NCBI RefSeq assembly: GCF_003855255.1
Contig: NZ_CP034072.1
Coordinates: 248,001 to 312,000, forward strand
Reading direction: 5' to 3'
DNA: 64,000 nucleotides
Source of the DNA: Mycolicibacterium nivoides
Lineage (GTDB): Bacteria > Actinomycetota > Actinomycetes > Mycobacteriales > Mycobacteriaceae
Shown: one piece after another, positions 11,937 through 30,794 of the stretch
How the letters are laid out: each line of letters starts with the position of its first letter
Numbering within the stretch: the first letter of the stretch is position 1
Translations under genes and position numbers: made by a program
The notes under the pieces: model-generated
What the model saw: only the letters and a program-made list of their open reading frames with translations
Databases searched by the model: none
What the model was told of the DNA's origin: nothing

Positions 11937-12068
11937 GCCGGGATGCAGCGAAAAGGTCAGTGGTTGCGCTCAGCGGGATTGTTTTTGGCGATGAACCACG
12001 AATGAATGGCCCACCAACTGTCGGCTCCTCCAGTGGTGGGTTTGCCGGTCAGCCGCGAAACTTACCGC

Positions 12069-12419: not shown

Positions 12420-12425
12420 CGCGTT

Positions 12426-12468
12426 ACGCCGCGGATTGCGGTCACATAGTGACCGCAATCCGCGGCGT
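12426..12468. terminator. 20-bp perfect stem-loop, bidirectional terminator
   Basis: Bases 12426-12445 and 12449-12468 are perfect 20-bp inverted copies with a 3-base loop (ATA). The hairpin lies exactly between the stop codons of the convergent DUF3349 and adhC genes, so it can serve both. Confidence 0.85.
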
Positions 12469-12481
12469 TGACGACTGGGAT

Positions 12482-13534: not shown

Positions 13535-13593
13535 AGCCCTCTTTGCTCGTCGTCTGTGCGTATCCCGGAAAAGATTAGTCCGGTTAACTGACT

Positions 13594-13611
13594 ACTGCCT
13601 GAGACGGCAGT
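13594..13611. promoter_or_regulatory. ACTGCC-N6-GGCAGT inverted repeat
   Basis: A perfect 6+6 inverted repeat between the adhC start (13534) and the YciI-like gene stop (13694). It could be an operator for adhC or a small terminator for the upstream minus-strand operon. Nothing decides between them. Confidence 0.35.
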
Positions 13612-13693
13612 GCGTAGCGTGCAACGACGCAGGCGGCGGCGATAATCCCGCTACCAGGTGTGACATATCTCCCGGGGCAACGCCGGGCGTGGG

Positions 13694-13969
13694 TCACAAC
13701 CCGGGCGCGCGGAACGCCCCGTTGAAGGAGGTGCGTTCACATCGGATCAGCCCGGCCAGGGTGTAGGGATCGCGGGCGATGACATCCTCGACCTCCTCTT
13801 CGCTGAGGTCCCCGGTGACGAGCACCGCTCCGGTCGCCGATTCCAGACGTCCGGCCAGCACGATGCGGCCCGCGGCCACTTCCTCCTCGAGCCACGCGAT
13901 GTGGGCGGGGCGGGTCTGGTCGACGACGTCGATGGGTTGCACGTAAGTGGTGGTGAGGACGTGGAACAT
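13694..13969 (-). CDS. YciI-like small protein
   Basis: 91 residues from ATG 13969. The sequence has the YciI-family layout: MFHVLTTTY at the start, RPAHIAWLEEEVAAGRIVLAGRL with the conserved His, and a C-terminal DPYTLAGLIRCE segment matching the family's DP(F/Y) motif. YciI proteins are ferredoxin-like dimers; one branch (TftG) is a dehydrochlorinase, most have unknown roles. It starts 10 bases after the TetR gene stop and so is in an operon with it. This suggests a minor enzymatic role tied to whatever the TetR senses, which is inference. Confidence 0.7.
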   Translation of the reverse strand: MFHVLTTTYVQPIDVVDQTRPAHIAWLEEEVAAGRIVLAGRLESATGAVLVTGDLSEEEVEDVIARDPYTLAGLIRCERTSFNGAFRAPGL

Positions 13970-13979
13970 GCCATGCAGA

Positions 13980-14657
13980 CTACGGGTCGGATGAGCTGTT
14001 CTCGTTATGCCTGTCGATTTCGCGGTGGCTACGCGAACGCAGGGCCGCGGCCGCATCGTCGGGGATGCCCAGGACGCGCATACAAGCATCTGCCACGTGG
14101 AACGGCATCTCGCAACGTTCCGGACCGGGCGGCATCGACCACACGTTGACCAACGATTCGACGAGCCGGAACGGGAGGTCGGCGGCCGCTTCATGAACGC
14201 CGGTCCGCCGGCTCAGCGCGCGACTCACAGACAGATAGTGCAGCCGAAGCCGCTCCCGGTCCGACCAGAACGGTTCAAGCTTGGCTTCACGCAGTTCGGG
14301 CAACAGATAGAGCGCACCGAGATTCCACCGGCCGGACATCAGTTGGGCGCCGTCGAACGCCGCCAAGGCGTGCAGATGTTCATCGGCGGTCAATGCGGGT
14401 TCGGTGCCCAGCAGGCTCGGGATGAACCCGAGGGTCGGCGCAACGGTCTGCTCGAGCAGCGCGCACAGGATGTCGTCCTTGGTCTTGAAGTAGTGGTAGA
14501 GGGACGCCTGGCGGACGCCGACCGCTTCGGCGATCGCCCGCGTCGATGTTCCCGCGTAGCCGGTAGCGGTGAACAATTCGCCTGCGGCGTCGAGGATTTC
14601 GTCACGAGCGGTGTGCCCCTGCCGGCGCTGGGCGTGTACCCGTGGTCTTCCTGCCAT
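13980..14657 (-). CDS. TetR-family regulator of the ureide island
   Basis: 225 residues. The DNA-binding domain is at about 17-65: DEILDAAGELFTATGYAGTST then RAIAEAVGVRQASLYHYFKTK, the standard TetR helix-turn-helix. The C-terminal ligand domain is helical (ELREAKLEPFWSDRERLRLHYL). It is divergent from the eleven-gene transporter/ureide operon across 223 bases that contain an inverted repeat, which is the classic arrangement for a local repressor. The ligand is unknown, but a ureide or breakdown product is the natural guess. Confidence 0.8.
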   Translation of the reverse strand: MAGRPRVHAQRRQGHTARDEILDAAGELFTATGYAGTSTRAIAEAVGVRQASLYHYFKTKDDILCALLEQTVAPTLGFIPSLLGTEPALTADEHLHALAAFDGAQLMSGRWNLGALYLLPELREAKLEPFWSDRERLRLHYLSVSRALSRRTGVHEAAADLPFRLVESLVNVWSMPPGPERCEMPFHVADACMRVLGIPDDAAAALRSRSHREIDRHNENSSSDP

Positions 14658-14702
14658 AGGGCCATGGTTGGCTCTTCGGCCGCGAAGGGCCAGCGCACGG
14701 GG

Positions 14703-14718
14703 TATCGGTCACTCGATA
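14703..14718. promoter_or_regulatory. TATCG-N6-CGATA inverted repeat, candidate TetR operator
   Basis: A perfect 5+5 inverted repeat in the intergenic region between the divergent TetR gene (start 14657) and the transporter operon (start 14881). It is the clearest dyad in this interval. Regulation is inferred from position only. Confidence 0.4.
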
Positions 14719-14880
14719 GAAACGCGTGACACGTGACGGTTACCGGGCCCGTCAATTCCTTTACACCTCATTAACGCCTGCGACACCCAGCGACGCGGCC
14801 TCCGGTGAAAACTGTCGCTCGACAGGCTGCGGCACACGGAGGTGGCGCGGAATTGCCAAATCGCTTCTGGGAGGCCCACG

Positions 14881-16926
14881 ATGGCTGAGGTCACGATCGA
14901 CATGACCTTCCCCGCGGATCTCGGCGCAGATGACCCCGCGACTGACGACTCGGCGATACGCGCTGAGACGGTGTCACTCTCACCGCCACAGCAGGTTGCC
15001 GCCATCGACGACCTGCGCGTCACCTTTCGCCGCAACGGCCGCGACGTCCACGCGTTGCGCGGAGTCTCTCTCGCCATCGCCCCGGGCGAGATAGTCGGCC
15101 TGGTCGGTGAATCCGGTTCCGGCAAAACGGTTCTTGGCTTCACGATGCTCGGCCTGCTGCCCAAGAGCGCCAAGATCGACGGTTCGGTCCGGGTGGCGAA
15201 CTCCGACATGGTCAACGGCGGAACCAAGGCGCTGCGCAAGGTGCGCCGCCTCGACCTCGGAGCGGTGTTCCAGGATCCGATGACCTCGCTCAACCCGACG
15301 ATGCGGATCGGCAAGCAGGTGGCGGAGGCGGCAGGCAGCGAGCAAGAGGCGCTGCGACTGCTCACCGCGGTCGGCATCCCGGAACCCAAGCGCCGGATGC
15401 GGGCGTACCCGCACGAACTCTCCGGCGGGTTGCGTCAGCGCGTGATGATTGCGATGGCGGTCGCGGGTGACCCCGAACTCGTCATCGCCGACGAACCGAC
15501 CACCGCGCTCGACGTCACCGTTCAGGCCCAGGTGTTACGGCTGCTGCAGCGGTTGCGAGACGAGATCGGTTGCAGCATCGTGCTGATCACCCACGACCTG
15601 GGCGTTGCCGCGCAGATCTCGGACCGCATCGCGGTGCTCTACGCGGGGCGTATCGCCGAGATCGGCCCCGCCGCCGACGTGCTGGCCCGCCCCGCCCATC
15701 CCTACACCAAAGGACTCCTCGGCAGCCGGCTCACCCTGGACACCGCACGGGACCGGAAGCTCGCGGCGCTGCCCGGCGCGGTGCCCAGCCCGGCGTCACC
15801 TTTGCCCGGATGTGCCTTCGGGCCGCGGTGTACCGCGGCCACCGGAGAATGTTCGACGTCACTGCCGGAACCCGTTGTCGTTGCACCCCAACGGGTCAGC
15901 GCTTGTATCCGGCCGATGGCGGACATCGGCGGTACGGTGGCATCGTCGGCCGTCGGCGAGCTGTTCCCGGTCAAGGAGCCTGCCAGCGACGAGCAGCCAC
16001 CTGCCGTGGCGCTGGCCAATGTCGCCAAGACATTCGCGGTGTCTCGGCGGTGGCTGGACCGTTCGGCCGACAATCACGGAAAGCTGCACGCGCTGCGCGG
16101 CGTGACCATGCGTGTGCGCCAGGGCGAATCCGTGGCACTGGTCGGGGAGAGCGGTTCGGGCAAGTCGACACTGTTGCGGATCATCGCCGGACTGGAGACT
16201 CCGACCTCGGGATCTGTTCAGGTGGCCGGCGGTCAACGCCCGCAGATGGTCTTCCAGGACGCGGGTGCCTCACTGACACCGTGGCTGTCCGTCGGTGAGC
16301 TGATCGCCGAGCGGTTGCGGGCCACAAAGATGTCGGCGGCTCAGCGCCGTACCGCCGTGGCGGAGGTACTCGAACGGGTCGGTCTGCCGGTCGAGGTGGC
16401 CAAAGCGCGCTCGGGAGAGCTGTCCGGCGGTCAGCGCCAACGGGTTTCGCTGGCGCGGGCCACCGTCGTGCCGCCGTCGGTGTTGCTGTGCGACGAGCCG
16501 ACCAGCGCGCTCGACGTGTCACTGGCGGCGTCCGTCCTCAACCTGATCGGGGATCTGCGCCGCAGCCTGGACATGTCCGTCGTCTTCGTCACCCACGATC
16601 TGTCCGTCGCCCGGGTGGTGGCCGACCGGATTGCCGTGATGTACCTGGGTCGCATCGTCGAGATCGGACCCGCGGATCGTGTGATCGGCGACCCGGCCCA
16701 TCCGTACACCCAGGCACTCGTCGATGCGATCCCCGACCTGGGCCGCGAATCACACGTGCTGCCCGGCGAACCGGCCAGCCCATTGTCCCCGCCGGATGGC
16801 TGCGCATTCCACCCCCGATGTCCGATCGCGGTACCGGCCTGCGGCGGTAGCGAACTCGACGTCCGGTTGGAGGGCACACCGGGCAACCCTCATCACGTTG
16901 CGTGCATCGAAAGGCGGGCGGTCTGA
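14881..16926 (+). CDS. Fused DppD-DppF-type ABC transporter ATPase
   Basis: 681 residues containing two complete ATPase domains in one chain. First half: Walker A GESGSGKT at 76-83, signature LSGGLRQRV, Walker B VIADEPTTALDVT, then an oligopeptide-transporter C-terminal Cys-containing tail (GCAFGPRCTAATGEC). Second half: a second GESGSGKS, LSGGQRQRV, LLCDEPTSALDVS, and another such tail (GCAFHPRCPIAVPAC). It drives import by the two permeases that follow. ATG 14881 has GGGAGG just upstream and is preferred over GTG 14842. The gene overlaps the next by one base. Peptide-type importers also carry non-peptide solutes, so here a ureide cargo is plausible. Confidence 0.9.
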   Translation: MAEVTIDMTFPADLGADDPATDDSAIRAETVSLSPPQQVAAIDDLRVTFRRNGRDVHALRGVSLAIAPGEIVGLVGESGSGKTVLGFTMLGLLPKSAKIDGSVRVANSDMVNGGTKALRKVRRLDLGAVFQDPMTSLNPTMRIGKQVAEAAGSEQEALRLLTAVGIPEPKRRMRAYPHELSGGLRQRVMIAMAVAGDPELVIADEPTTALDVTVQAQVLRLLQRLRDEIGCSIVLITHDLGVAAQISDRIAVLYAGRIAEIGPAADVLARPAHPYTKGLLGSRLTLDTARDRKLAALPGAVPSPASPLPGCAFGPRCTAATGECSTSLPEPVVVAPQRVSACIRPMADIGGTVASSAVGELFPVKEPASDEQPPAVALANVAKTFAVSRRWLDRSADNHGKLHALRGVTMRVRQGESVALVGESGSGKSTLLRIIAGLETPTSGSVQVAGGQRPQMVFQDAGASLTPWLSVGELIAERLRATKMSAAQRRTAVAEVLERVGLPVEVAKARSGELSGGQRQRVSLARATVVPPSVLLCDEPTSALDVSLAASVLNLIGDLRRSLDMSVVFVTHDLSVARVVADRIAVMYLGRIVEIGPADRVIGDPAHPYTQALVDAIPDLGRESHVLPGEPASPLSPPDGCAFHPRCPIAVPACGGSELDVRLEGTPGNPHHVACIERRAV

Positions 16927-17795
16927 TGGCGATAGCCGTTGCGTTCCCCACGCTGGCCGACGGGCGGACCCGCCTGCGGTTGTCGTGGTCGTGGCCACGG
17001 TCCACGGTGCTCAACTGGGCCGGATTCTCGATGGTGATCGTGTTGACGATGCTCGTCATCGCGGTGCCGCTGATCGCCCCGCACGACCCGCTCACACCGG
17101 TGGGGATGCCGCTGCAAGCGCCGGGAAAGAACGGGTTCTTGCTCGGCACCGACAGCGTCGGCCGCGACATCCTGTCCCGCGTTCTCTACGGCGCGCGGTC
17201 CAGCTGGTTCGCGGCGCTGGTCGTGGTCGCCGTCGGCCTGGCGATCGGCGGGCTCGTCGGCCTGATCGCCGGCGCGTCGGGAGGCTGGATCGACTCCCTG
17301 TTGATGCGCATCACCGACGCGTTCCTGTCCTTGCCCGCCCCGGTGCTCGCGATCGCCGTGGTCGCCGCGCTCGGACCGAGTTTCGTGCACACCCTGATCG
17401 CGGTGTCGATCGTCTGGTGGCCGTTCTACGCCAGACTGGTACGCGGCGAGGTTGCGCGCATGGCCGCCCGCCCACACGTCGAGGCCGCCAAACTGGCTGG
17501 GGTGAGCCGGTTCCGGCTCGCGACGCGCCACCTGCTTCCGGGTGCGGTGCCGAATGCCCTCGTCGCCGCCAGCCTGGATCTGGGCACCCTGATCCTCACC
17601 GTGGCCGCACTGTCGTTCCTCGGGCTCGGGCAGGCCGCGCCTGCGCCTGAGCTGGGTGCCGACTCGGCCCGAAACCTCAGCTATTTCCTGCAGCAGTGGT
17701 GGATCCCGGTGATGCCGGGTCTCGGTGTCCTGGTTCTGGCGCTCGTCGGAAACATCGCCGGGGACTGCCTGCGCAACCTGATGAAGAACCGGTGA
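16926..17795 (+). CDS. DppC-type ABC permease
   Basis: 289 residues. An N-terminal helix, then the family motif GTDSVGRDILSRVLYGAR typical of DppC/OppC, five further membrane helices and the cytoplasmic EAA loop (HVEAAKLAGVSRFRLATRHLLP) that docks on the ATPase. It forms half of the membrane channel of a family 5 (peptide/nickel/opine) importer. ATG 16926 overlaps the ATPase stop codon (TGATG), indicating translational coupling. Confidence 0.9.
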   Translation: MAIAVAFPTLADGRTRLRLSWSWPRSTVLNWAGFSMVIVLTMLVIAVPLIAPHDPLTPVGMPLQAPGKNGFLLGTDSVGRDILSRVLYGARSSWFAALVVVAVGLAIGGLVGLIAGASGGWIDSLLMRITDAFLSLPAPVLAIAVVAALGPSFVHTLIAVSIVWWPFYARLVRGEVARMAARPHVEAAKLAGVSRFRLATRHLLPGAVPNALVAASLDLGTLILTVAALSFLGLGQAAPAPELGADSARNLSYFLQQWWIPVMPGLGVLVLALVGNIAGDCLRNLMKNR

Positions 17796-17812
17796 GTGAG
17801 AGGAGTTCTTGA

Positions 17813-18817
17813 GTGAAGACTTTCGTTGCTTCCCGCCTGAGTGCGATGGTGGCGATCCTGATCGCCCTTACCGGAGTGATGTTCGTTCTCCAGCACGTCT
17901 CGCCGCTGGACCCCGTGAAGGCGCAGTTGGGCGCGCAGGCTTCGGCGCAAGCGGTCGCCGCCAGGCGCGAGGAACTCGGTTTGAACCAGCCGGTGCTCGT
18001 ACAGTTCTGGCACTACCTGACCAATGCGGTGACCGGTGATCTGGGAACCTCCTACCGCACCCGTCACCCCGTGTTGTCGGACCTCGGCAGCTTCCTGCCT
18101 GCCACCTTGGAACTCGCGATGTTCGGGATCGCCATCGCACTGGTGCTGGCGGCCCTGCTGGCATTCAGCACCACGTTGAAGTGGCCTGGTGCCCAGGTAC
18201 TTCGGGCGGTCTTGTTCACCGGCGCGGCGGCACCGATGTTCCTGCTCGGCATCCTCGGGCTGATCGTGTTCTACCAGAACCTGGGGTGGGTTCCGGCCAA
18301 TGGGCGTATCGCGGTGGCGAATCCACCCACCGGGCCGACGGGCCTGCTCACCGTCGACGGACTTGTGCACGGCCGCTTCGACGTGGTGGTCGATGCCGTG
18401 CAGCACCTGATGCTGCCCGCCCTCGTGATCGCGATCGGGCCCGCTGTGGCGATCGGGCGGGTGCTGCGCAGCAGCCTGATGACCGATATCGACAGCGACT
18501 ACGCGCGGACAGCCCGGGCCAAGGGGTTGTCCGAGGGCCGGATCATGACGCGCCACGTGCTGCGCAACTCGGTCGGGTCTGCTTTGTCGATGACCGGTCT
18601 TCAAGTGGGCCTGATGTTCTCGGGCGTGCTCGTTGTGGAGCAGGTGTTCGGGTGGCCCGGCATCGGCCAGTACATCGCGCAGAGCATCCCGGTCGCCGAC
18701 TTCCCGGCCATCGCCGGCGTCACCTTGATGTTGGGTGCGCTCTATGTAGTCATCAACACCGCCGTGGACCTGCTCCAGGCGGCAGCCGATCCCCGTATCG
18801 CAGTTATAGGAGGTTAG
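17813..18817 (+). CDS. DppB-type ABC permease
   Basis: 334 residues. The N-terminal helix (VASRLSAMVAILIALTGVMFVL), a long periplasmic segment containing LGLNQPVLVQFWHYL (a DppB/OppB signature) and several membrane helices are visible; the EAA loop is RAKGLSEGRIMTRHVLRNS near residue 240. It completes the membrane channel with the DppC-type partner. The GTG start has AGGAG ten bases upstream. The gene order ATPase-C-B is inverted compared with the usual B-C-D-F order. Confidence 0.9.
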   Translation: MKTFVASRLSAMVAILIALTGVMFVLQHVSPLDPVKAQLGAQASAQAVAARREELGLNQPVLVQFWHYLTNAVTGDLGTSYRTRHPVLSDLGSFLPATLELAMFGIAIALVLAALLAFSTTLKWPGAQVLRAVLFTGAAAPMFLLGILGLIVFYQNLGWVPANGRIAVANPPTGPTGLLTVDGLVHGRFDVVVDAVQHLMLPALVIAIGPAVAIGRVLRSSLMTDIDSDYARTARAKGLSEGRIMTRHVLRNSVGSALSMTGLQVGLMFSGVLVVEQVFGWPGIGQYIAQSIPVADFPAIAGVTLMLGALYVVINTAVDLLQAAADPRIAVIGG

Positions 18818-19453
18818 GTGCCCAAACAGCCACTCATCGTGGGTAATCCAGTTCTTGTCGTGGTCGACATACAGGAGGGCGGTGCAATGTCGGCGCAGGA
18901 CGCCGGGATTCCGGTGATGCCCGGTCATGCCGAGCGCGTCGCCGTCGCCGAGAAGCTGCTCGCCGCAGCGCGTGCGGCGGATGTACCGGTGGTGTTCTTC
19001 CAGGAGGTGCACCGGCCCAGCGGCATCGACTTCGGCCGCGAGCTCGACGGCACCGAGGGCGTCCACTGCGTCGAGGGTCAGCCCGGCACCGACCTGGAAC
19101 CCACCCTGCGGCCGCTGCCCGACGAGTTCCACATCGTGAAGCGGCGTTACTCCGGTTTCATCGGAACGGATTTCGAGATCGTGCTGTCAGGCCTCAAGGC
19201 CTCGACGCTCATCCTCATCGGCGGACTCACCGACGTGTGTGTGCACTACACCTTCGCCGATGCGCATCAGCGTGACTTCTACGTCCGCGTCGTCACCGAC
19301 TGCGTGGGCGGGTCGTCGCAGTACCGGCACGATGCCGCGCTCGATGCCATGGAGTACCTGCAGACCGGTGCACTACGAACCTCCGACGAGATCCTCGCCG
19401 CCTTCTCCGAACTCGCCACGTCCCAACCCCTTCTCGAAGGAGCCGCCCGATGA
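18818..19453 (+). CDS. Isochorismatase-fold cysteine hydrolase (possible ureide amidase)
   Basis: 211 residues. The catalytic triad of the family is in place: Asp17 (VLVVVDIQ), Lys108 (FHIVKRRYSGF) and Cys141 (GGLTDVCVHYT). This superfamily includes N-carbamoylsarcosine amidase, biuret hydrolase and ureidoacrylate hydrolase RutB, all of which cleave the C-N bond of a carbamoyl or ureido group; other members are nicotinamidases or isochorismatases. In an operon with allantoinase- and allantoicase-like genes but no ureidoglycolate lyase, hydrolysis of ureidoglycolate or another N-carbamoyl intermediate is an attractive guess. GTG 18818 directly follows the permease stop, with TAGGAGG upstream. 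Confidence 0.8.
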   Translation: MPKQPLIVGNPVLVVVDIQEGGAMSAQDAGIPVMPGHAERVAVAEKLLAAARAADVPVVFFQEVHRPSGIDFGRELDGTEGVHCVEGQPGTDLEPTLRPLPDEFHIVKRRYSGFIGTDFEIVLSGLKASTLILIGGLTDVCVHYTFADAHQRDFYVRVVTDCVGGSSQYRHDAALDAMEYLQTGALRTSDEILAAFSELATSQPLLEGAAR

Positions 19454-21030
19454 TCAAGCGATGGAAGACCATGGCCGCCGTGAGTGCGGCGGCGGCATTG
19501 CTGCTGAGCGCCTGCGGAGGTTCGGATTCCGGGAGCGGCACACCCAGCGCGGCGCCGACCGACAAGGTGCTGCACCTGTCGTTCCTGCAGGACCCGGGCC
19601 AGCCGCCCGACCCTGACATCTACTACGCCGGCCAGGGTCTGCTGCTGACCACGAATATCTACGAGGGCCTGCTGCAGTACAAGGCGGGGACCGACAAGCC
19701 CGTGCTGGAACCTCTGCTGGCCACCGAGTGGAAGGTGTCGCCGGACAACAGGGTCTTCGATTTCAAACTGCGCGAAGGCGTCAAGTTCCATGACGGCACC
19801 CCGTTCACCGCGGAAGCTGTCAAGGCGTCCTTCGATCGCAGACTGGCGGTCAACCAGGGGCCGGCCTACATGGTCAAGGACGTGGAATCGGTTACCCCAC
19901 ACGGTGATTACGACGTCACCGTCACCCTGAAGGCGCCCAACGCGGCGTTTCTCGACTATCTCGCGTGCGCGTACGGGCCCAGGATGCTGAGTCCTCAGGG
20001 ACTCCAGCAGAACGCGGGCTCCGATCACGCACAGAGCTACCTGACCAACCACGATCTGGGGACCGGCCCGTACACGCTCACCGCGGCCGAGGTCGGATCG
20101 CGCTACGCGTTGGCGTCATTCCCGGAGTATTGGGGCGCCAAGCCGTACTTCGAGAAGGTCGAGATGCCGGTGATCACCGACGTTTCGGCGCAACAGCTCC
20201 AGTTCAACAACGGGCAGCTTGCCGCGATCCTGCATGACCTGCCCTCGTCAGCGGTCCAGTCCTATTTGGACAACAAGGCATTCGCGAACTACTCGCTGCC
20301 GACCATGATGTCGAACTACCTGTACGTGAACCCGCACAAGGGCATGATGACCGATGCGAAGAACCGCACCGCGGTGCTGCAGGCGATCAACGTCGACGAG
20401 CTGGTCAAGCAGACGTACTTCGGGCGCGGCGATGTGGCCGGACAGATCTATCCGCCCAACATGATGGCCTCGGACTTCGCCAATCAGGATGTGGCTCACG
20501 ATCCGTCGGTGCTCAGCGGCATCGCAGGGGGACTGCCCGCCGACCAGAAAGCCATCACGATCGGCTATGACTCGAGTAATCCCGACAATCAGCTGGTCAG
20601 CAATCTGCTCCAGACACAGCTTGCCGCTGCGGGATTGACCGCAAAGGTTCAGGCCTACCCGACGTCAGAAATCTACGGCTGGGTCGGTACCGACGGTCAG
20701 TCGGCTCCGGAGATCTTCACCGCCCTGGCCTGGCCGGACGCGCCCTCGCCGTACACCTGGGGGCACATCTCGTGGGATCCCGACGGCGGGCTGAACTACC
20801 TGGGCTGTTCGGCACCACCGGTCACCGATGCGTTGGCCAGTGGCTTGCCCACCGGTGACTCCGCGGTGTTCTCGCGGGCCGGGCTGGAAGCTGTGAAGAC
20901 CGGCTGCTGGCTCAACATCGCCGACGTCAACGACTTCATGGTGGCCCAGCCCTGGCTCAAAGGTGTCGAACAGTCCCACGTGGTGACCAACCCCAACTCC
21001 CTGCGGCTCGCCGCGCTGTCGGTGGGCTGA
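19450..21030 (+). CDS. Family 5 solute-binding lipoprotein of the ABC importer
   Basis: 526 residues, normal for SBP_bac_5. The signal peptide ends in lipobox LLSAC with lipidated Cys22, so it is tethered outside the plasma membrane. Family features: IYEGLLQY, LATEWKVSPDNRVFDFKLREGVKFHDGTPFTAEAV. It captures the solute for the DppBCDF-like machinery. Such proteins bind peptides, nickel complexes, opines and other small molecules, so the fold does not reveal the cargo; the downstream catabolic genes suggest a ureide. ATG 19450 overlaps the hydrolase stop as ATGA. Confidence 0.9.
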   Translation: MIKRWKTMAAVSAAAALLLSACGGSDSGSGTPSAAPTDKVLHLSFLQDPGQPPDPDIYYAGQGLLLTTNIYEGLLQYKAGTDKPVLEPLLATEWKVSPDNRVFDFKLREGVKFHDGTPFTAEAVKASFDRRLAVNQGPAYMVKDVESVTPHGDYDVTVTLKAPNAAFLDYLACAYGPRMLSPQGLQQNAGSDHAQSYLTNHDLGTGPYTLTAAEVGSRYALASFPEYWGAKPYFEKVEMPVITDVSAQQLQFNNGQLAAILHDLPSSAVQSYLDNKAFANYSLPTMMSNYLYVNPHKGMMTDAKNRTAVLQAINVDELVKQTYFGRGDVAGQIYPPNMMASDFANQDVAHDPSVLSGIAGGLPADQKAITIGYDSSNPDNQLVSNLLQTQLAAAGLTAKVQAYPTSEIYGWVGTDGQSAPEIFTALAWPDAPSPYTWGHISWDPDGGLNYLGCSAPPVTDALASGLPTGDSAVFSRAGLEAVKTGCWLNIADVNDFMVAQPWLKGVEQSHVVTNPNSLRLAALSVG

Positions 21031-21881
21031 TGGCGACGCTGGTCCGCAAGAGCGGAGTCCGCCACATCATCCTGCTCACCCTGGGTTGGGAGGAACTTCC
21101 GAAATCGGTGTCGGTGTACGGGGCCCCGGCCGCGGAGCGCATGCGCGAACCCGTTCCGGGCGTGTTGCTCCAGACCGATGGGGGCTGGGTGCTGCTCGAC
21201 ACGGGATTCAACACCGCGCTCGTGCGTGACCCCGCGTTGTACCGGCGGTTCTTCCCGACGGTGGAATACCGACCGGTGCTACCGGGGCCCGGCGAGCCGA
21301 TCGAGCAGCGGCTCGCCGAGGTCGGGGTGGACTTCGACGACATCCACACCGTGGCGGTGAGCCATCTGCACCACGACCATGCCGGCGGGCTCAAGCTGTT
21401 CGCAGGCAAGGTCCCGGTGCACGCCCAGCGCCGCGAGCTCGAATACGGTCTGTCGAACCACCCTGAGCCGGAACGCAATGCGATCGTCCGGGTGGACTTC
21501 GACGATCCGAACATCGACTGGCGGCTGGCCGACGGCGAGGCCACGATCGCCCCCGGCATCTCCGCGATCCCGACGTACGGACACACGCCAGGGCATCAGA
21601 GTTTCGCGGTGGAGCTCGACGAGTCCGTCGGCGGAGGCGGGTTCGTGTTCGCGTTCGATGCCGCGGATCTGACCGAGAACATCGAGCACGAGCTCCCGAT
21701 CGGCGGGTTCATCGACGTCGAGCCCGAGGAAACGGTCGAACCGATCCGCAAGCTCAAGAAGCTGGCGCGCGACAAGCGATATCAGTTGATTCCCGGCCAT
21801 GACCCGGAGGTGTGGCCGGGCCTGACCGAGCACTTCCACGAGCGCTTCGGGCCCGTCACCTCGGAAGCCCATCATGGCTGA
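21030..21881 (+). CDS. Metallo-beta-lactamase-fold hydrolase (AHL-lactonase-like)
   Basis: 283 residues. The metal motif H112-x-H114-x-D116-H117 reads SHLHHDHAGG, followed by downstream ligands in YGHTPGHQSF (His), FAFDAADL (Asp) and PGHDPEVW (His), the pattern of the N-acyl-homoserine-lactonase-like branch with two zinc ions. Such enzymes open lactones or related cyclic esters and amides. In this operon it may hydrolyse a cyclic ureide or a lactone intermediate rather than a quorum signal; no luxI/R genes are present. The start overlaps the binding-protein stop (TGATG). Confidence 0.8.
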   Translation: MATLVRKSGVRHIILLTLGWEELPKSVSVYGAPAAERMREPVPGVLLQTDGGWVLLDTGFNTALVRDPALYRRFFPTVEYRPVLPGPGEPIEQRLAEVGVDFDDIHTVAVSHLHHDHAGGLKLFAGKVPVHAQRRELEYGLSNHPEPERNAIVRVDFDDPNIDWRLADGEATIAPGISAIPTYGHTPGHQSFAVELDESVGGGGFVFAFDAADLTENIEHELPIGGFIDVEPEETVEPIRKLKKLARDKRYQLIPGHDPEVWPGLTEHFHERFGPVTSEAHHG

Positions 21882-23169
21882 CCTCGTGCTCCGGGCGCAG
21901 CGGGTCCTGCTGGACGGCGAGCTGCGGCCGGCGTCCGTGGCCGTCACCGGCGGAGTCATCACGGACGTCGGGACTGTGGATGCCGATGCGCGGGCACCGA
22001 TCCAGATCGATGTCCCGGCCCACGCGGTGCTGCTGCCCGGCTTCGTCGACACCCATGTCCACGTCAACGAACCGGGCACGGATTGGGAGGGATTCGAAAC
22101 GGCGACCGCTGCGGCGGCCGCTGCCGGGATCACCACCATCGTGGACATGCCGCTGGATTGCCGTCCGGTGACGACCACAGTGGCGGCGTTGCGGACCAAA
22201 CAGGCAGTGGCCGAAGGGAACTGCCGTGTCGACGTCGGGTTCTGGGCGGGCGTGGTGCCGGAGAATCTGGGGGAGTTGGAGTCGCTGGCAGCCGCGGGCG
22301 TCCGCGGGTTCAAATGCTTCCTCGCCGACTCCGGCAACCCCGACTTCGGGTACCTGACTCCCGGGCAGTTCCGTACCGCGATGAGCCGGATCGCCGAAGT
22401 CGGTTCGGTGCTGTTGGTGCACGCCGAAAGCCATCGGGTGATCGCCGGCAGCGCACCGCCGCACGGGCGGCACTACTCATCATTCCTGCGATCCCGTCCC
22501 GATGCCGCCGAAGAGGATGCGGTGGAACTGGTGCTCGATACCGCGGCCGCGAGTGGCGCGCGAGCCCACATCGTGCATGTGTCGAGCGCGAACGTGCTGC
22601 CGATGCTTGCCGACGCCAAACGCGCGGGCGTCGCGGTGACAGCCGAGACCTGTCCGCACTACCTGACGTTCACCGCGGAGGCGATTCCCGACGGCGGCAC
22701 CGAGTTCGCCGCCTGCCCACCTGTCCGAGACGCCGCCAACCGTGACCGGCTGTGGGACGGCCTGCTGGACGGGACCCTGGACATGGTGGTGTCGGATCAT
22801 TCACCGTGTTCCCCGAAGCTCAAGGCGGACGGGGATTTCGGGCGGGCCTTCGGCGGTGTCAGCTCATTGCAGGTCGGGCCGAGCGCGGTGTGGGCACATG
22901 CGGCGCAACGAGGGTTCGGACTGCCCGATCTGAGCCGCTGGATGGCGCAGCAGCCCGCCGCGCTGGCCGGGTTCGCCGACCGGGGGAGCATCGCACCTGG
23001 TCTGCGGGCCGACCTGTGCGCCTTCGATCCCGATGCGGAAACACCCGTGCACAGCGATGATCTTCGCCACCGTCACCGCGTGAGCCCGTACGACGGCGTG
23101 ACGGTCCGGGGAGCGGCGCTGCAAACCTGGGTGGCCGGCGTGCCGGTGCTGGAGACGGTGGCGGCATGA
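21874..23169 (+). CDS. Allantoinase-like cyclic amidohydrolase
   Basis: 431 residues, the size of allantoinases and dihydropyrimidinases. Binuclear metal ligands: His61 and His63 (DTHVHVNEPG), the carbamylated Lys147 (GFKCFL), His183 (LLVHAES), His235 (AHIVHVSSAN) and Asp308 (VVSDHSPCSPKLK). ETCPHYLTF and ACPPVRDAANRDRLW are allantoinase signatures. Allantoinase hydrolyses the hydantoin ring of allantoin to allantoate. Two family-typical segments are altered: the usual NEPGRTEWEGF reads NEPGTDWEGF, and the usual MPLN reads MPLD. This branch may accept a different hydantoin. It overlaps the previous gene by eight bases and the next by four. Confidence 0.85.
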   Translation: MADLVLRAQRVLLDGELRPASVAVTGGVITDVGTVDADARAPIQIDVPAHAVLLPGFVDTHVHVNEPGTDWEGFETATAAAAAAGITTIVDMPLDCRPVTTTVAALRTKQAVAEGNCRVDVGFWAGVVPENLGELESLAAAGVRGFKCFLADSGNPDFGYLTPGQFRTAMSRIAEVGSVLLVHAESHRVIAGSAPPHGRHYSSFLRSRPDAAEEDAVELVLDTAAASGARAHIVHVSSANVLPMLADAKRAGVAVTAETCPHYLTFTAEAIPDGGTEFAACPPVRDAANRDRLWDGLLDGTLDMVVSDHSPCSPKLKADGDFGRAFGGVSSLQVGPSAVWAHAAQRGFGLPDLSRWMAQQPAALAGFADRGSIAPGLRADLCAFDPDAETPVHSDDLRHRHRVSPYDGVTVRGAALQTWVAGVPVLETVAA

Positions 23170-23918
23170 GGATTCTGATACTCAATCCCAACACCTCAGG
23201 GTCGATGACCGCCGAGGTCGCCGCAGCGGCCGCCGAAGTGGCTCATACCGACACCGAGATCATCTGTCTGGCACCGCGGTTCGGCAGCGTGGCGATCGAC
23301 TCGGCCGCCGAGAGCTACCTGGCTGCCGTCGGCATGATGGACCTGGTCGTCAGGCTGACCCAAGCCGGCGAATTCGATTTCGACGCCGTCGTCGTGGCCG
23401 GATTCGGTGAGCACGGCAGGGATGCACTCGCCGAAATGCTGACCGTGCCGGTGTTCGACATCGCCGAATGTTCGGCTCACGTCGCGCATCTGATCGGCCG
23501 GAGGTTCTCCGTCGTGACCACGCTCGCCCGATCGATCGCCCCGATCGAAGACCGGCTGCTGCTGGCCGGGCTCGACGCACACTGTGCGTCGGTGCGGGCC
23601 TGCGGACTGGACACCGCCACGGTCGATGCCGATCCGGAAGGCGCGATCCAGGCCATCGTGGATGAGGCAGCGCGAGCGGTCACCGACGACGGGGCCGACG
23701 TGATCTGTCTGGGGTGTGCGGGGATGTCCGGGGTCGTCGACGCGGTCACCGCCAAGCTGGGCGTGCCCGTCGTCGACGGGGTTGCCGCGGCGGTCGGTCT
23801 CGCCCAGGCCGTGGTCGGACTGGGGTTGTCGACCAGCAAGGCCGGGGTCTACGCACCGGGCCCGGACAACCCGCGCAGCCACTGGCCCATCTCACATGCC
23901 CTTGGAGTGGACGGATGA
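23166..23918 (+). CDS. Hydantoin/allantoin racemase homologue lacking the first catalytic Cys
   Basis: 250 residues of the Asp/Glu-racemase superfamily, HyuA/HpxA branch (RILILNPNTSGSMT at the N-terminus, LGCAGMSG near the C-terminus). True hydantoin and allantoin racemases use two cysteines, about positions 79 and 184. Here Cys184 is present (CLGC) but residue 79 is Gly (codon GGA at 23400-23402, in VVVAGFGEHGRDAL). Arylmalonate decarboxylase, a relative, likewise has a Gly at this place and one Cys, and does not racemise efficiently. The protein is therefore perhaps a one-base epimerase, decarboxylase or isomerase. ATG overlaps the amidohydrolase stop (ATGA). Confidence 0.8.
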   Translation: MRILILNPNTSGSMTAEVAAAAAEVAHTDTEIICLAPRFGSVAIDSAAESYLAAVGMMDLVVRLTQAGEFDFDAVVVAGFGEHGRDALAEMLTVPVFDIAECSAHVAHLIGRRFSVVTTLARSIAPIEDRLLLAGLDAHCASVRACGLDTATVDADPEGAIQAIVDEAARAVTDDGADVICLGCAGMSGVVDAVTAKLGVPVVDGVAAAVGLAQAVVGLGLSTSKAGVYAPGPDNPRSHWPISHALGVDG

Positions 23919-24940
23919 TCCCGGCAGTACCAGGTGTGGACCTCGCCTCACGGGTCGTCGGCGGCAGCGTGGTGGCCGCCAGCGACGAGTCGTTCGGCTT
24001 CAAGGAGCGGCTGGTCGATCCGGCCGAACCGGCGTTCGTGCCGGGCACCTTCGATCTGCGCGGGGAGATCGTCGACGGCTGGGAGACCCGCCGCCATGCC
24101 GGGCCCGGTGGCGACTGGGCGATCGTGCGTCTCGGTTCGCCGGGGCGGCTGTGCGCCGTCGATGTCGACACCCGCTTCTTCTCGGGCAACCATCCGCAAG
24201 CCTGCCGCCTGGACGCGGCTGTGCTCGCACCCAGCGCCGACGCGACGGATCCCGACGTGCAATGGACCACCATCGTGGAACCCACCGCGTTGAAACCCGA
24301 TTCGAACAACCTGATGACGGTGACCGACCGCCGTCGCTGGACGCACATACGGCTGTCGCTGGCGACCGACGGTGGTGTGGCTCGGTTGCGTGCCTATGGC
24401 GAGGTGATACCCGACCCGGCGTTGTGGTCCGACGTCACCATCGAGGTATCCGGCCTGGAGCAAGGCGGCCGCGTCGAATGGTGCAGCGACGCGTTCTATT
24501 CCGACGCCGGTTCGCTGGTGGCCCCCGACCGGCCGCGCAACATGGGCGATGGCTGGGAAACGCGCCGCCGCCGGGACATCGGCCCGGAGGATCACGACGC
24601 GGTGGTGATCTCCTTCGCCGTACCGACCGATCTGAAGCGCATCGAGATCGACACGTCCTACTTCGTGTTCAACGCGTCGCCGGAGGTGGCCGTTCTCGGC
24701 GCCGGGGTACGTGCGGACGACGAACGCGGCTGGGCGGCGGTGCAATTCGACATTCCTGTGCTCAGCCGCGTGCGACTGGCCGCCGACGCCAGGCAGGTTT
24801 TCGTGGTTGATGCCCGTGGCGTCACCGCATTGCGGGTGCAGGCGTATCCCGACGGCGGCATCGCCAGGGTGCGCGCGTCGGGCACACCGACCGTCCAAGG
24901 GCTGCAACAGCTTCGAGAGAAGTGGACGGAGTGCTCGTGA
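23915..24940 (+). CDS. alc: Allantoicase
   Basis: 341 residues made of the two tandem beta-sandwich repeats of allantoicase. Repeat 1 has DLASRVVGGSVVAASDESFG, IVDGWETRRH and VDVDTRFFSGNHPQA; repeat 2 has SDAFYSDAGSLVAPDRPRNM, GWETRRRRDIG and IDTSYFVFNASPE. The enzyme cleaves allantoate to ureidoglycolate and urea in the cytoplasm. This is the most specific marker in the operon and fixes it as a ureide pathway. Repeat 2 departs somewhat from typical members (NASPE instead of the usual NAPG), which may indicate changed specificity. Start ATG 23915 overlaps the previous stop as ATGA. Confidence 0.85.
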   Translation: MIPAVPGVDLASRVVGGSVVAASDESFGFKERLVDPAEPAFVPGTFDLRGEIVDGWETRRHAGPGGDWAIVRLGSPGRLCAVDVDTRFFSGNHPQACRLDAAVLAPSADATDPDVQWTTIVEPTALKPDSNNLMTVTDRRRWTHIRLSLATDGGVARLRAYGEVIPDPALWSDVTIEVSGLEQGGRVEWCSDAFYSDAGSLVAPDRPRNMGDGWETRRRRDIGPEDHDAVVISFAVPTDLKRIEIDTSYFVFNASPEVAVLGAGVRADDERGWAAVQFDIPVLSRVRLAADARQVFVVDARGVTALRVQAYPDGGIARVRASGTPTVQGLQQLREKWTECS

Positions 24941-25470
24941 GCGATGTTCTGGCGTCGGACTGCGCGGGATTGTGGCGGCGCACCTTGCTGATCGAGGCCG
25001 ACGGAACGCGTGACACCGGGACGGACGTCGTGTGGTTGCAGGCCGGTAGCGCCTACGTCGACTCCCGCGGCTTCGGTGGTGAGCTGGTCCAGCGGGGCAC
25101 CGTGTTCTCCTGGCGACGTGACGTCGAGCTGGTGCCGTCGGGCCCTGCTCCCGACGAGGGTGAGATGCGCTGGGACGGGGACACTCTGATCGAGACCGGC
25201 GTGCATGAAGACTACGTCGAGCATTGGGTGCGCGATCCCGGTCCGACAACCCCTCGCGGCGGGTTTTTCCTGCGTGCACCCGACGGAGGCCAGGCCCTCC
25301 TGGTGCGGGTCGGGCCGATCTTCGGGTGGCTGGGCGCCGGTGAGGCGGTGATCGACACGGTGGGCGGACCGCGATGGGCCGCACTCGCCGTCGAATTGGA
25401 AGGTCAGCAGATTCAGGCCAACGGCGTGCTCTGGGTCGTGGAACGAACTGAAGGGACAGTGAATCTGTGA
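24937..25470 (+). CDS. Small unknown protein, HRI1/lipocalin-like
   Basis: 177 residues from GTG 24937, which overlaps the allantoicase stop as GTGA, the same type of junction as the next gene. No signal peptide. It is beta-rich: GLWRRTLLIEADG, DVVWLQAGSAYVDSR, TLIETGVHEDYVEHWVR and QANGVLWVVER. The order of an ETG-x-Y-x-E-x-W segment and a final NG-x-x-W strand reminds me of the HRI1 family, a lipocalin-like fold known from fungi with bacterial relatives of unknown function. No enzyme motif is visible. As part of the operon it could bind an intermediate. GTG 24922 is an alternative start. Confidence 0.55.
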   Translation: MSDVLASDCAGLWRRTLLIEADGTRDTGTDVVWLQAGSAYVDSRGFGGELVQRGTVFSWRRDVELVPSGPAPDEGEMRWDGDTLIETGVHEDYVEHWVRDPGPTTPRGGFFLRAPDGGQALLVRVGPIFGWLGAGEAVIDTVGGPRWAALAVELEGQQIQANGVLWVVERTEGTVNL

Positions 25471-26528
25471 GTGGCACAACATCGTTGGCGGCGTTCATGT
25501 CCGTGCCGATCATCGACATCAGCGGGCTGCGTTCGCCCCGGCGTGACGAGCGGGAACGGGTCGCGGCCGAGATCGGCGCGGCGGCCCGCGAAGTCGGCTT
25601 CTTCTACATCAGCGGATCCGGCATCGAGGAGTCGGTGTTCGAGCGGATGCTCGCTGCCACCAAGCAGTTCTTCGCACTGCCGCTGGAGGAGAAGATGCGC
25701 AGCTATATCGGGCTGTCGCAGTGTCACCGCGGTTATGTGCCGGTAGGGGAGGAGGGCCTCGAATCCGACAGCCCTCCCGACCTGAAGGAAGCCTTCGACA
25801 CCGCGCTCGACCTGCCGGCCGACGACCCCGACCATCTGGCGGGCAACCCGATGCTCGGACCGAACACCTGGCCCGATCTGCCCGGATTCGCCGAAGCGGT
25901 GACGCCCTACTACCAGGCTGTGATCGACGTTGGCCGGCAACTGTTGTGGGCGTTCGCGGTGGCGCTGGGGGAGGACCCCGAGGTGTTCTCCCGGCACGCC
26001 ACGAAGACACCCAGCCAACTGCGGTTGATGCACTACCCGTACAACGCCGACGCGCAGGACGGACAGGGTATCGGCGCACACACCGACTACGAGTGCTTCA
26101 CGCTGCTCAAGCCCACCGCGCCCGGCCTGGAAGTGCTCAACGGCGCCGGCGAGTGGATCGACGTGCCACCGGTGGACGGGACGTTCGTCGTCAACATCGG
26201 AGATCTGCTCGAACTGTGGACCAACGGAACGTTCGTGGCGACCAGTCACCGGGTGCGCCGCGTGGCGCAGGAGCGCTACTCGTTCCCACTGTTCTTCAAC
26301 GTCGACTATCACACCGAGGTGAAACCGCTGCCCCGGTTCGTCGCGACCGACGGGCCCCAGCGCCAGCCACTGCGAGCCGGTGAGCATCTGTTCGCTCAGA
26401 CCGCGCAGACCTTCGCGTATCTGCGCCGCCGGATGCAGGCGGGGGAACTGGTGCTACCCGACGGGTCCCTGGCCACCGGGCAATTCGGTCAGCAGGCCGT
26501 GTACGGAGTCGATGGCCGGATCAGTTGA
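25467..26528 (+). CDS. Isopenicillin-N-synthase-like Fe(II)/2-oxoglutarate dioxygenase
   Basis: 353 residues. The N-terminal non-haem dioxygenase domain (VPIIDISGLRS, EVGFFYISGSGI) is followed by the jelly-roll with the iron triad His205, Asp207 (GAHTDYECFT) and His261 (VATSHRV), and the co-substrate motif Arg270-Tyr-Ser272 (ERYSFP). Such enzymes hydroxylate, demethylate or cyclise substrates using O2 and 2-oxoglutarate. None is part of canonical allantoin breakdown, so it may process an N- or C-substituted ureide before ring opening. It is the last gene of the operon and its stop overlaps the fecB stop tail-to-tail by eight bases. Confidence 0.85.
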   Translation: MSGTTSLAAFMSVPIIDISGLRSPRRDERERVAAEIGAAAREVGFFYISGSGIEESVFERMLAATKQFFALPLEEKMRSYIGLSQCHRGYVPVGEEGLESDSPPDLKEAFDTALDLPADDPDHLAGNPMLGPNTWPDLPGFAEAVTPYYQAVIDVGRQLLWAFAVALGEDPEVFSRHATKTPSQLRLMHYPYNADAQDGQGIGAHTDYECFTLLKPTAPGLEVLNGAGEWIDVPPVDGTFVVNIGDLLELWTNGTFVATSHRVRRVAQERYSFPLFFNVDYHTEVKPLPRFVATDGPQRQPLRAGEHLFAQTAQTFAYLRRRMQAGELVLPDGSLATGQFGQQAVYGVDGRIS

Positions 26529-27603
26529 TCGGGGCGTTCACCCAGCGCAGGTCATCGAGGATGCCGCGGGCGGCCACGATGTTCTGACCGGTCTGCCAGA
26601 CCTCGTTGTTCACCACGAACACCCGGTTGTCCTTGGCGGCGGACAGGGCCCGCCACGCCGGGCTCTGCAGGATCTTGGGTGCGTTGTCCCTGGCCGCCTC
26701 GGATGCGAACGAGACGTAGACGATGTCCGCGTCGGCGATGCGGTAGTCGGCGTCGGTGGTGCCGAGCTCCTCGTAGGGTTTGTCGGTAAACCGTTGCGCG
26801 GCAGGTCGATCCAATCCGACTGCGGCCAGCACGCTGCCGGCGAAGGTGTCAGTGCCGTACACGCGGACGGTGTTCTCGGTCAGCTGCACCACCGAGGCCT
26901 GGAAGTGCCCGGCGTCATTCTGCGCTCCGGCGTCGCGGGCGGCATCGTCGAATTTCGCGATCAGGTCCGCCGCGGCGTCCCTGCGACCCGTCGCCTCGCC
27001 CACCGCACGCAGTGTGTCGCGCCAGGCGGCCCCGGGCGCCCCGGTGAACACGGTCGGGGCGATCGCCGACAGCGCGCCGAACGACGCCGGAGTGAGGCTC
27101 GCGGAGCCGAGGATCAGTTCGGGGTTGGCCGACTTGATGGCCTCGAGGTCCGGCGCGTTCCGGGAACCGGCCGGGGCGACCCCGTGCACGACGGCTCCCA
27201 GATAGGAGGGCTGCTCGGACGAACCGTCCGGAAGTGCGGCCGCGACGATGCGGGACTGCAGACCCAGCGCGCACAACGCATCGAGCTGGTCCCCGGACAG
27301 CGCGACGATGCGCTGCGGATCGCCGCGCACCTCGGTGGACTCCGAGATATCCGAGCTGTTCGCTCCGCCTCCTCGGGCATTGCGGACGTCGCGCGCCGAC
27401 TGATCGGCCGCGGCCGGCTCGGCCGCGCAGGATTCGTCGGGGCGGCGCTGATTGCCCAGCACGCCGGAATCGGCGATCTTGGTGACACTGGTCGTCATCG
27501 ACGTCTGCGCCTGCTGCGTCTGCTCGGCAGAGCCGCACCCGCTGGCGAGGGTCGCGGCCGCGGCGATCACCGCGACTACGGCGCGGGGTCGGTTGGTCAG
27601 CAC
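26521..27603 (-). CDS. fecB: Iron-siderophore/haem-binding lipoprotein FecB
   Basis: 360 residues from GTG 27603, matching the length I recall for Rv3044. Signal peptide with lipobox LASGC, then a Ser/Thr/Gln-rich linker and a periplasmic-binding-protein fold of the FecB/BtuF class (RIVALSGDQLDALCALGLQSRIV, then ADADIVYVSFAS). It is attached to the outer face of the plasma membrane. Mycobacterial FecB has been linked to haem/siderophore use and to envelope permeability. No partner permease genes are adjacent. It is divergent from ctaD with 176 bases between them, as in H37Rv. Confidence 0.85.
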   Translation of the reverse strand: MLTNRPRAVVAVIAAAATLASGCGSAEQTQQAQTSMTTSVTKIADSGVLGNQRRPDESCAAEPAAADQSARDVRNARGGGANSSDISESTEVRGDPQRIVALSGDQLDALCALGLQSRIVAAALPDGSSEQPSYLGAVVHGVAPAGSRNAPDLEAIKSANPELILGSASLTPASFGALSAIAPTVFTGAPGAAWRDTLRAVGEATGRRDAAADLIAKFDDAARDAGAQNDAGHFQASVVQLTENTVRVYGTDTFAGSVLAAVGLDRPAAQRFTDKPYEELGTTDADYRIADADIVYVSFASEAARDNAPKILQSPAWRALSAAKDNRVFVVNNEVWQTGQNIVAARGILDDLRWVNAPIN

Positions 27604-27746
27604 CGGGCGACCGTAACATTCACCGCTTTGTCGCTGGTCAGGACCTCGCGGCCGAAAGACGCGACGCTGCGGCGCCACGCAGTACGACAGTTTGTAGGAC
27701 CCAGGGACGCCGAGGCCGCCGGGAGCGTTAGGATTCAGTTCGATAA

Positions 27747-30794
<3,048 letters not shown>

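Follow-up and report, generated by a model that had tools for sequence, protein, structure and literature searches.

What does a bacterial operon import and degrade when it joins a peptide-type ATP-binding cassette (ABC) importer and enzymes of the allantoin type to a putative dioxygenase and a small protein with the predicted fold of yeast Hri1? This question is raised by a run of eleven genes in Mycolicibacterium nivoides, which we studied in positions 248001-312000 of its single-contig 6.9-Mb genome (label G000). That whole stretch of 64,000 nucleotides (nt) is called the window here, and coordinates are those of the window unless another sequence is named. All eleven genes lie on the + strand at 14884-26528, mostly overlapping one another, behind a divergent TetR gene and convergent with fecB at the end of the run. 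An earlier reading of the sequence, hereafter the original prediction, had taken them as one dedicated ureide pathway with its own importer, with N-methylated ureides among the nitrogen sources to be tried. We favor, at a probability of roughly 0.57, the reading that the operon takes up an N-methylated guanidino or ureido compound, a putative substrate, and removes its methyl group oxidatively, and that it carries a subfunctionalized allantoin-type cassette; the chief other candidate substrate is creatinine or methylguanidine. The pointer to N-methylated ureides is in the right direction.

A conserved core and an optional ureide cassette

As our sample, 248 genomes of the genus were searched with the HRI1-like protein of the window, which retrieved matches in 73 genomes, the window's own included. 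Regions were taken for 62 of the other 72 matching genomes, the ten with the weakest matches (best E values of 4.6e-14 to 6.9e-10) being left out, and 58 of these regions (L063, L064, and L068-L123) were of the window's cluster type, with the remaining four (L124-L127) being of a different type. The TetR end is missing from six of the 58 loci, in most cases at the edge of a contig. About a quarter of the sampled genomes of the genus carry the operon.

The eleven genes on one strand with mostly overlapping starts were present where the original prediction had placed them. The arrangement is not a chance one, as the 58 genus loci show the same order whether or not they include the ureide genes. 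The recurring core in these relatives comprises the ABC importer, an isochorismatase-fold hydrolase, a metallo-beta-lactamase (MBL) fold hydrolase, the HRI1-like protein, and a 2-oxoglutarate (2OG) dioxygenase. The cassette of allantoinase, racemase, and allantoicase genes is complete in 31 of them and absent from 22, with allantoinase and allantoicase present in 4 and allantoinase and racemase in 1. In the loci without the triad, the MBL and HRI1-like matches almost abut, their alignment ends being -9 to 54 nt apart. A tree of the core was built from permease B, the binding protein, the MBL protein, and the dioxygenase, with 55 rows; L085, L087, L092, and L098 were left out for missing or broken genes. 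On this tree the presence of the cassette changes 8 times, at least 6 of these changes being forced by well-supported branches, and the direction of change, gain versus loss, is not set by the tree. In L069, the sister of the cassette-bearing L068, the first allantoinase codons are joined to the last allantoicase codons, which is a deletion scar. Among the 22 cassette-less genomes, 9 are without any allantoicase match, and one more (G378) has a weak match only (E 1.9e-14).

The claim that allantoinase and allantoicase define the pathway is not supported by these counts, and the ureide genes are not fixed members of the operon, as they occur independently in relatives, an outcome that the original prediction had itself named as evidence against it. 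The co-occurrence that had been expected was borne out for the MBL, isochorismatase, and dioxygenase genes, which recur together with the HRI1-like gene, and failed for allantoicase, which is optional. With the cassette absent from so many relatives, what the term ureide describes is an insert and not the whole system, and the persistence of the importer, the two hydrolases, the HRI1-like protein, and the dioxygenase points to N-demethylation of the type described for the enzymes MgdH and MgdL.

A dioxygenase and an HRI1-like protein resembling MgdH and MgdL

The last two genes of the operon encode the HRI1-like protein (24922..25470, + strand; 182 amino acids, no Pfam match), which we propose to be an MgdL-like N-hydroxymethyl hemiaminal lyase, and the 2OG/Fe(II) dioxygenase (25467..26528, + strand; PF14226, DIOX_N, and PF03171, 2OG-FeII_Oxy), which we propose to be an MgdH-like N-methyl hydroxylase. 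The two genes adjoin in 58 of 58 cluster loci, these loci having been picked by the HRI1-like gene. Residues H205, D207, H261, R270, and S272 of the dioxygenase (HxD...H and RxS) are kept in 59 of 59 cluster members, the window included, as are D47 and R49 of the HRI1-like protein, and in an alignment of 56 HRI1-like sequences R49 is invariant and D47 nearly so.

The AlphaFold model of the HRI1-like protein is nearly all beta, with a predicted local distance difference test (pLDDT) score of 95.9. A fold search with this model returned yeast YLR301w/Hri1 (PDB entry 3rby) as its first match, with an E value of 3.4e-5, a probability of 1.00, TM scores of 0.54/0.42, and a root-mean-square deviation of 7.6, followed by a lipocalin-like protein. 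Despite this likeness of fold, identity to the yeast protein in the fold alignment is 12%, and the window protein gave no match to the Hri1 family PF16815 up to an E value of 10; two bacterial relatives matched that family weakly (L125 at 20.6 bits and L178 at 20.1 bits, cut-off 27). Since a profile of HRI1-like proteins retrieved nothing from the PDB sequences up to an E value of 1, the link to Hri1 rests on the fold and the weak Pfam matches, and the label HRI1-like, already given in the original prediction, is right by fold. Among the matches listed, the named proteins nearest to the window's are from Mycolicibacterium and Mycobacterium species. We know of no function for yeast Hri1, and the reaction proposed here would tie this orphan eukaryotic fold to something that can be tested.

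In the guanidine-carboxylase operon of Vreelandella boliviensis, the dioxygenase MgdH (UniProt A0A265DXP8) and the beta-barrel lyase MgdL (UniProt A0A265DXW6; catalytic D49/R51) were shown to demethylate methylguanidine (PMC12508155, 2025), and this pair, from guanidine operons of halophiles, is the only one of its sort that we found in the literature searched. In both cases a 2OG/Fe(II) dioxygenase stands beside a small beta-barrel protein, a predicted one in the window, with an Asp-x-Arg motif, D49/R51 in MgdL and D47/R49 in the window protein, and relatives of both pairs sit in carboxylase-allophanate hydrolase operons. Unlike the pair in that account, the window pair lies in a TetR-flanked importer and hydrolase operon that includes two more hydrolases and, as an optional part, the ureide cassette. 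The window does not show the setting of a guanidine carboxylase operon with its guanidine riboswitch, carboxylase or riboswitch occurring only in relatives. By analogy, the two proteins would be, in a loose sense, an MgdH/MgdL-like pair in a new operon setting, the window operon having neither riboswitch nor carboxylase. The main text of PMC12508155 does not contain the terms HRI1, methylurea, mycobac-, or allantoin. We likewise found no description of an operon of this make-up in the literature searched, which agrees with the original prediction that no such pathway had been described. If the analogy holds, likely kin of MgdH and MgdL would extend to a large importer-bearing mycobacterial operon and to proteobacterial loci with guanidine riboswitches.

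HRI1 domains beyond this operon

In three of the genus loci of the different type (L124, L126, and L127), an HRI1 domain ends a long reading frame and the dioxygenase comes next. Of these only L126 is annotated, and its gene series runs from DUF1989 through a urea-carboxylase-type protein (1297 amino acids), an allophanate hydrolase ending in HRI1, the dioxygenase, and an SSF transporter to TetR. The fused gene of this actinobacterial carboxylase operon lies at L126:5282-7708 on the - strand, beside the dioxygenase. An HRI1-like domain directly after an allophanate hydrolase match, again beside the dioxygenase, was also seen in the actinobacterial carboxylase operons of L151, L154, L155, L158, L160, L163, and L166.

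When named genomes were scanned with a profile of HRI1, 106 loci were obtained, and the counts that follow are for the best 80, which include some records already among the genus loci (L154 is the contig of L124 and L203 that of L125). A related dioxygenase lies within 3.5 kb in 37 of these, an isochorismatase in 30, an MBL gene in 21, and carboxylase-operon genes anywhere in 28; 74 have at least one among a dioxygenase (within 9 kb), an isochorismatase, an MBL gene, and carboxylase-operon genes. Thirteen loci that have carboxylase-operon genes encode dioxygenases sharing 57-64% identity with that of the window; the values are 52% for L164, 55% for L189, and 44% for L187. In five loci of alphaproteobacteria (L177, L187, L192, L202, and L206), the gene immediately before the HRI1-like one encodes a protein 56-60% identical to the window's isochorismatase. 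Two Nocardia loci (L153 and L165) hold the importer, binding protein, MBL, HRI1, and dioxygenase genes with no match to the isochorismatase or the cassette. A Rhodobacteraceae locus (L202:3675-13895) holds an importer, an isochorismatase 58% identical to the window's, and an HRI1-like gene, with adjoining arginase-family, S-Me-THD-family, and MBL genes. In plasmid records searched for the HRI1 domain, the fused form gave no match, and there was one 35% partial Streptomyces match without relevant neighbors.

Guanidine-I riboswitches were found in 12 of the 27 HRI1 loci scanned, these being 12 of 19 proteobacterial loci and 0 of 8 actinobacterial ones (0/6, 4/7, 1/7, and 7/7 in the four scan batches). 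The riboswitch of L178 (2916-3017) is followed by a series of genes on the same strand, the last of them being creatininase, isochorismatase, MBL, and HRI1-like genes, and this is the one locus in which the unbroken gene run after the riboswitch was checked gene by gene; the stretch L178:2916-10744 also encodes an NMT1-type binding protein. The riboswitch also lies upstream of HRI1-like genes in L169, L172, L174, L181, L185, L194, L195, L197, L199, L204, and L208.

A shared palindrome and the carboxylase operons

The TetR-family regulator (13980..14657, - strand; PF00440) is encoded divergently from the operon, and the gap between its gene and that of the ATPase holds the palindrome CTGTC-N4-GACAG (14812..14825, strandless), a candidate operator. 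The palindrome stands in the same gap in 51 of the 52 relatives with a visible gap, the exception being L100. Elsewhere in these loci it occurs at only 2 sites in 1,115,519 bases, and a control pattern with swapped half-sites at 0; the whole 6.9-Mb genome has 4 sites, of which the three besides the operon's are inside reading frames. Such a conserved putative operator is what the predicted control by the divergent TetR would lead one to expect, and the regulator probably acts on the operon through it. The palindrome was also sought in 20 more HRI1/dioxygenase loci (18 distinct), chosen for carboxylase genes or for Nocardia or Mycobacterium origin, and it was present in 15 of the 18, which include both Nocardia clusters as well as carboxylase operons from Mycolicibacterium, Rhodococcus, Geodermatophilus, and Streptomyces; it was not in L125 (= L203), L159, and L196. 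TetR homologues in HRI1/dioxygenase loci, many of them with carboxylase genes, mostly show 44-49% identity (38% for Streptomyces L136 and 42% for L203). A likely TetR operator, common to carboxylase operons, can thereby be named.

In 13 of 60 loci within the genus, the genes immediately upstream of TetR encode the carboxylase and the allophanate hydrolase. The triad is absent from 11 of these 13 versus 7 of the 39 others with a visible TetR (Fisher p 3e-5, uncorrected for kinship). We take the carboxylase-type genes as guanidine rather than urea carboxylases because of their DUF1989 partners and the operon described in PMC12508155, not because of a diagnostic residue. The window's own genome has two DUF1989 genes at genome positions 120155-121371, about 140 kb from the operon, and a carboxylase-type match follows them.

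These ties bring in an explanation by nitrogen scavenging of the methylguanidine or creatinine type, in which the substrate would be a guanidino compound, the guanidine produced would go to a carboxylase, and the ureide cassette would be a rider with its own substrate. The palindrome and TetR kin common to carboxylase operons, the adjoining carboxylase-type operons of the genus, the DUF1989 genes of the own genome, and the creatininase-family matches in 34 of the 80 HRI1 loci elsewhere (by tblastn, with a Pfam check in L178 and L134 only) are all in keeping with it. In the 60 mycobacterial loci, however, tblastn found no match to the creatininase family, and the carboxylase-type match of the own genome (within 120155-123505) is partial, covering query positions 537-1214 of 1297 with one stop inside and the biotin-carboxylase part missing. 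It would also leave unexplained why an allantoin-type cassette with diagnostic residues of its own stays in 36 of 58 relatives, and we regard it as unlikely.

The allantoin-type cassette

The cassette lies between the MBL and HRI1-like genes on the + strand and consists of an allantoinase paralogue (21874..23169), an allantoin-racemase-type protein (23166..23918; Asp/Glu racemase, PF01177), and an allantoicase of a separate clade (23915..24940). The allantoinase scores 487 bits against TIGR03178 (cut-off 358), the allantoicase 293 bits against TIGR02961 (cut-off 278), and the racemase matches the solved allantoin racemase 5lfd at 223 bits, so that the ureide enzymes are of the allantoin type, as had been predicted. 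The cassette thus has all three families of canonical allantoin catabolism (AllB, allantoin racemase, and allantoicase), two of them above curated cut-offs and the racemase of the solved type.

In contrast to the canonical system, the cassette is dispensable, the operon has no NCS1 permease, and the own genome has no member of the AllA family. The cluster allantoicases (36) are split from the other copies of the family (33) at 26 alignment columns, some of which are indels. The allantoinase has Asp for Asn in the MPLN motif: every cluster copy that could be read (34 of 34, with 3 rows unreadable) shows MPLD, and MPLN is found in both the own genome's best-scoring allantoinase and the E. coli enzyme 3e74. 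Asn94 of E. coli allantoinase is presumably a substrate residue. It appears in a docking table of PMC9863593. The cassette racemase has G79 and C184 in 32 of 32 copies; the idea that it is disabled, lacking the first Cys of hydantoin racemases, was rejected because Gly also occupies this position in the solved structure 5lfd of an allantoin racemase.

The own genome has a second allantoinase at 6.37 Mb, which scores 553 bits and has as neighbors a permease-like gene and a racemase gene whose product shares 50% identity with that of the window. This separate locus of allantoinase, permease-like, racemase, and regulator-like genes spans G000:C1:6373395-6380320 (L213:7396-14321), its permease and an AllE-like neighbor being named by eye. 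Across the genus, two allantoicase copies (four repeat matches each) are present in 28 of the 89 allantoicase-bearing genomes. A further allantoicase, 44% identical to the window's, lies among ABC-ATPase and dehydrogenase-like genes in G273 (L215:7274-8461). The M. smegmatis allantoicase and hydantoin racemase genes receive mention under nitrogen limitation (PMC3662644, PMC4617892), and those mentions do not concern this operon. The cassette has little of the look of a standard allantoin pathway that was simply transferred to this site. The two paralogous ureide sets of this genome suggest two substrates, and the cassette would be subfunctionalized.

It is here that a dedicated operon for the import and degradation of unmethylated allantoin has to be weighed, in which the HRI1-like protein would be the ureidoglycolate lyase, ureidoglycolate itself being a hemiaminal, and the dioxygenase and MBL protein would carry out side chemistry. 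Besides the family scores, such an operon would account for the HRI1-like gene coming directly after allantoicase and for the absence of the usual ureidoglycolate lyase AllA (PF04115), with 0 matches in the own genome and a match in 1 of the 248 genus genomes, though 89 have allantoicase. PF04115 is, however, equally missing from genomes with allantoicase but without the HRI1-like protein, and since AllA is missing genus-wide regardless of HRI1, we keep its replacement by the HRI1-like protein as a rival only. The 22 core loci without the cassette, 9 of them in genomes without any allantoicase match, the second allantoinase-permease-racemase locus, and the 28 genomes with two allantoicases also speak against an allantoin operon, and we hold it to be improbable.

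A proposed route and the observations that weigh against it

For the favored N-demethylation of an imported guanidino or ureido compound, we infer the enzyme activities and the substrate as follows. The Dpp-type importer would bring in a small N-methylated guanidino or ureido compound, with the operon under TetR control, and the isochorismatase-fold and MBL hydrolases may open or trim amide or carbamoyl bonds of the substrate or product. The dioxygenase would hydroxylate the N-methyl group, and the HRI1-like protein, with Asp47/Arg49 as an acid-base pair, would cleave the N-hydroxymethyl compound, otherwise slow to decay, so that formaldehyde is released and the demethylated product remains. 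This urea, guanidine, or ureide could then pass to the cassette (in this window), to an adjoining carboxylase-allophanate hydrolase operon, or to general urea enzymes. N-hydroxymethyl derivatives of ureas and hydantoins serve as formaldehyde releasers and would be too stable to do without a lyase. MgdH and MgdL carry out such a hydroxylation and cleavage with methylguanidine (PMC12508155).

A more specific form of this proposal, which we put forward only tentatively and consider rather doubtful, would have the operon act on N-methylated allantoins or methylureas, for example remnants of caffeine-type purines, and would make the HRI1 fold a broad family of hemiaminal lyases with yeast Hri1 as a member. 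N-hydroxymethyl ureides, like N-hydroxymethylguanidine, would break down too slowly unaided, which would explain a hydroxylase with a dedicated lyase. The C-8 oxidation of caffeine ends in a methylated allantoin, and the racemase and later enzymes are described as unknown or putative (PMC4408171); the likeness to the operon lies in that endpoint, and the link is conceptual. The operon may in this way provide candidate genes for methylated ureide degradation, described as poorly understood in the same caffeine literature.

Several observations weigh against the N-demethylation proposal. The MBL gene occurs at E <= 1e-40 in 61 of the 248 genomes, namely 59 with the HRI1-like cluster (the window included) plus G319 and G331. 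G319 has kept the importer, isochorismatase, binding protein, and MBL genes with HRI1, dioxygenase, and triad all gone, and G331 has kept the dioxygenase and triad with only HRI1 gone. Among the 80 HRI1 profile loci, 38 are without a dioxygenase within 9 kb, short contigs included. A binding protein of family 5, such as the operon's, usually takes peptides, opines, or metals. An Rfam scan of window positions 11000-30000 gave no match, so no riboswitch was found there, and the lack of riboswitches in the 8 actinobacterial loci scanned and the partial carboxylase match of the own genome point the same way. The HRI1-like protein is probably homologous to the published MgdL, the two being compared by motif, fold, and gene context only. 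Of the compounds tested, MgdH is reported as active only on methylguanidine and N,N-dimethylguanidine, and MgdL as narrow (PMC12508155).

Importer, hydrolases, and minor features

The gene order is ATPase, permease C, permease B, isochorismatase, binding protein, MBL, allantoinase, racemase, allantoicase, HRI1-like, and dioxygenase, with junctions of -25, 17, 0, -4, -1, -8, -4, -4, -19, and -4 nt (negative values being overlaps). All families named in the original prediction were found, the one departure being that the isochorismatase gene precedes the binding-protein gene rather than the reverse, and the layout and the Pfam families agree with a single co-directional operon with its own importer. 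Families were assigned from Pfam and NCBIfam profiles.

On the + strand, the importer comprises a fused Dpp/Opp-type ATPase (14884..16926; PF00005 and PF08352, two stretches each), whose start may be 14884 (ATG) or 14842 (GTG), a permease of the DppC/NikC type (16902..17795; PF00528), a permease of the DppB/NikB type (17813..18817; PF00528 and PF19300), and a family-5 solute-binding protein (SBP_bac_5; 19450..21030; PF00496). These parts, including the NikA/CntA-like binding protein, all score under the equivalog cut-offs, and with their Dpp/Nik character they would fit a peptide or metal-opine import operon whose enzymes act on some natural product that is taken up and has no relation to ureides. 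The palindrome and the enzyme pair common to carboxylase operons argue against this, as does the presence of the allantoin-type cassette, and we consider it very unlikely.

The isochorismatase-fold amidohydrolase (18818..19453, + strand; PF00857) falls under the cut-off for the biuret hydrolase BiuH (NF050097; 69 bits, cut-off 370), and its catalytic D17, K108, and C141 are intact in 55 of 55 rows. The AiiA-like MBL hydrolase (Lactamase_B; 21030..21881, + strand; PF00753) has AiiA as its best PDB match and an intact HxHxDH motif in 58 of 58 rows; it falls under the AiiA/AttM lactonase cut-offs of NF045699 and NF045700 (108 and 113 bits, cut-offs 375 and 390). At the end of the operon, the dioxygenase gene overlaps the convergent fecB by 8 nt. 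Four relatives (L085, L087, L092, and L093) carry a second copy of the binding-protein and MBL genes 3' of the dioxygenase gene, and in L092 the matches to the two binding-protein copies are both fragmented.

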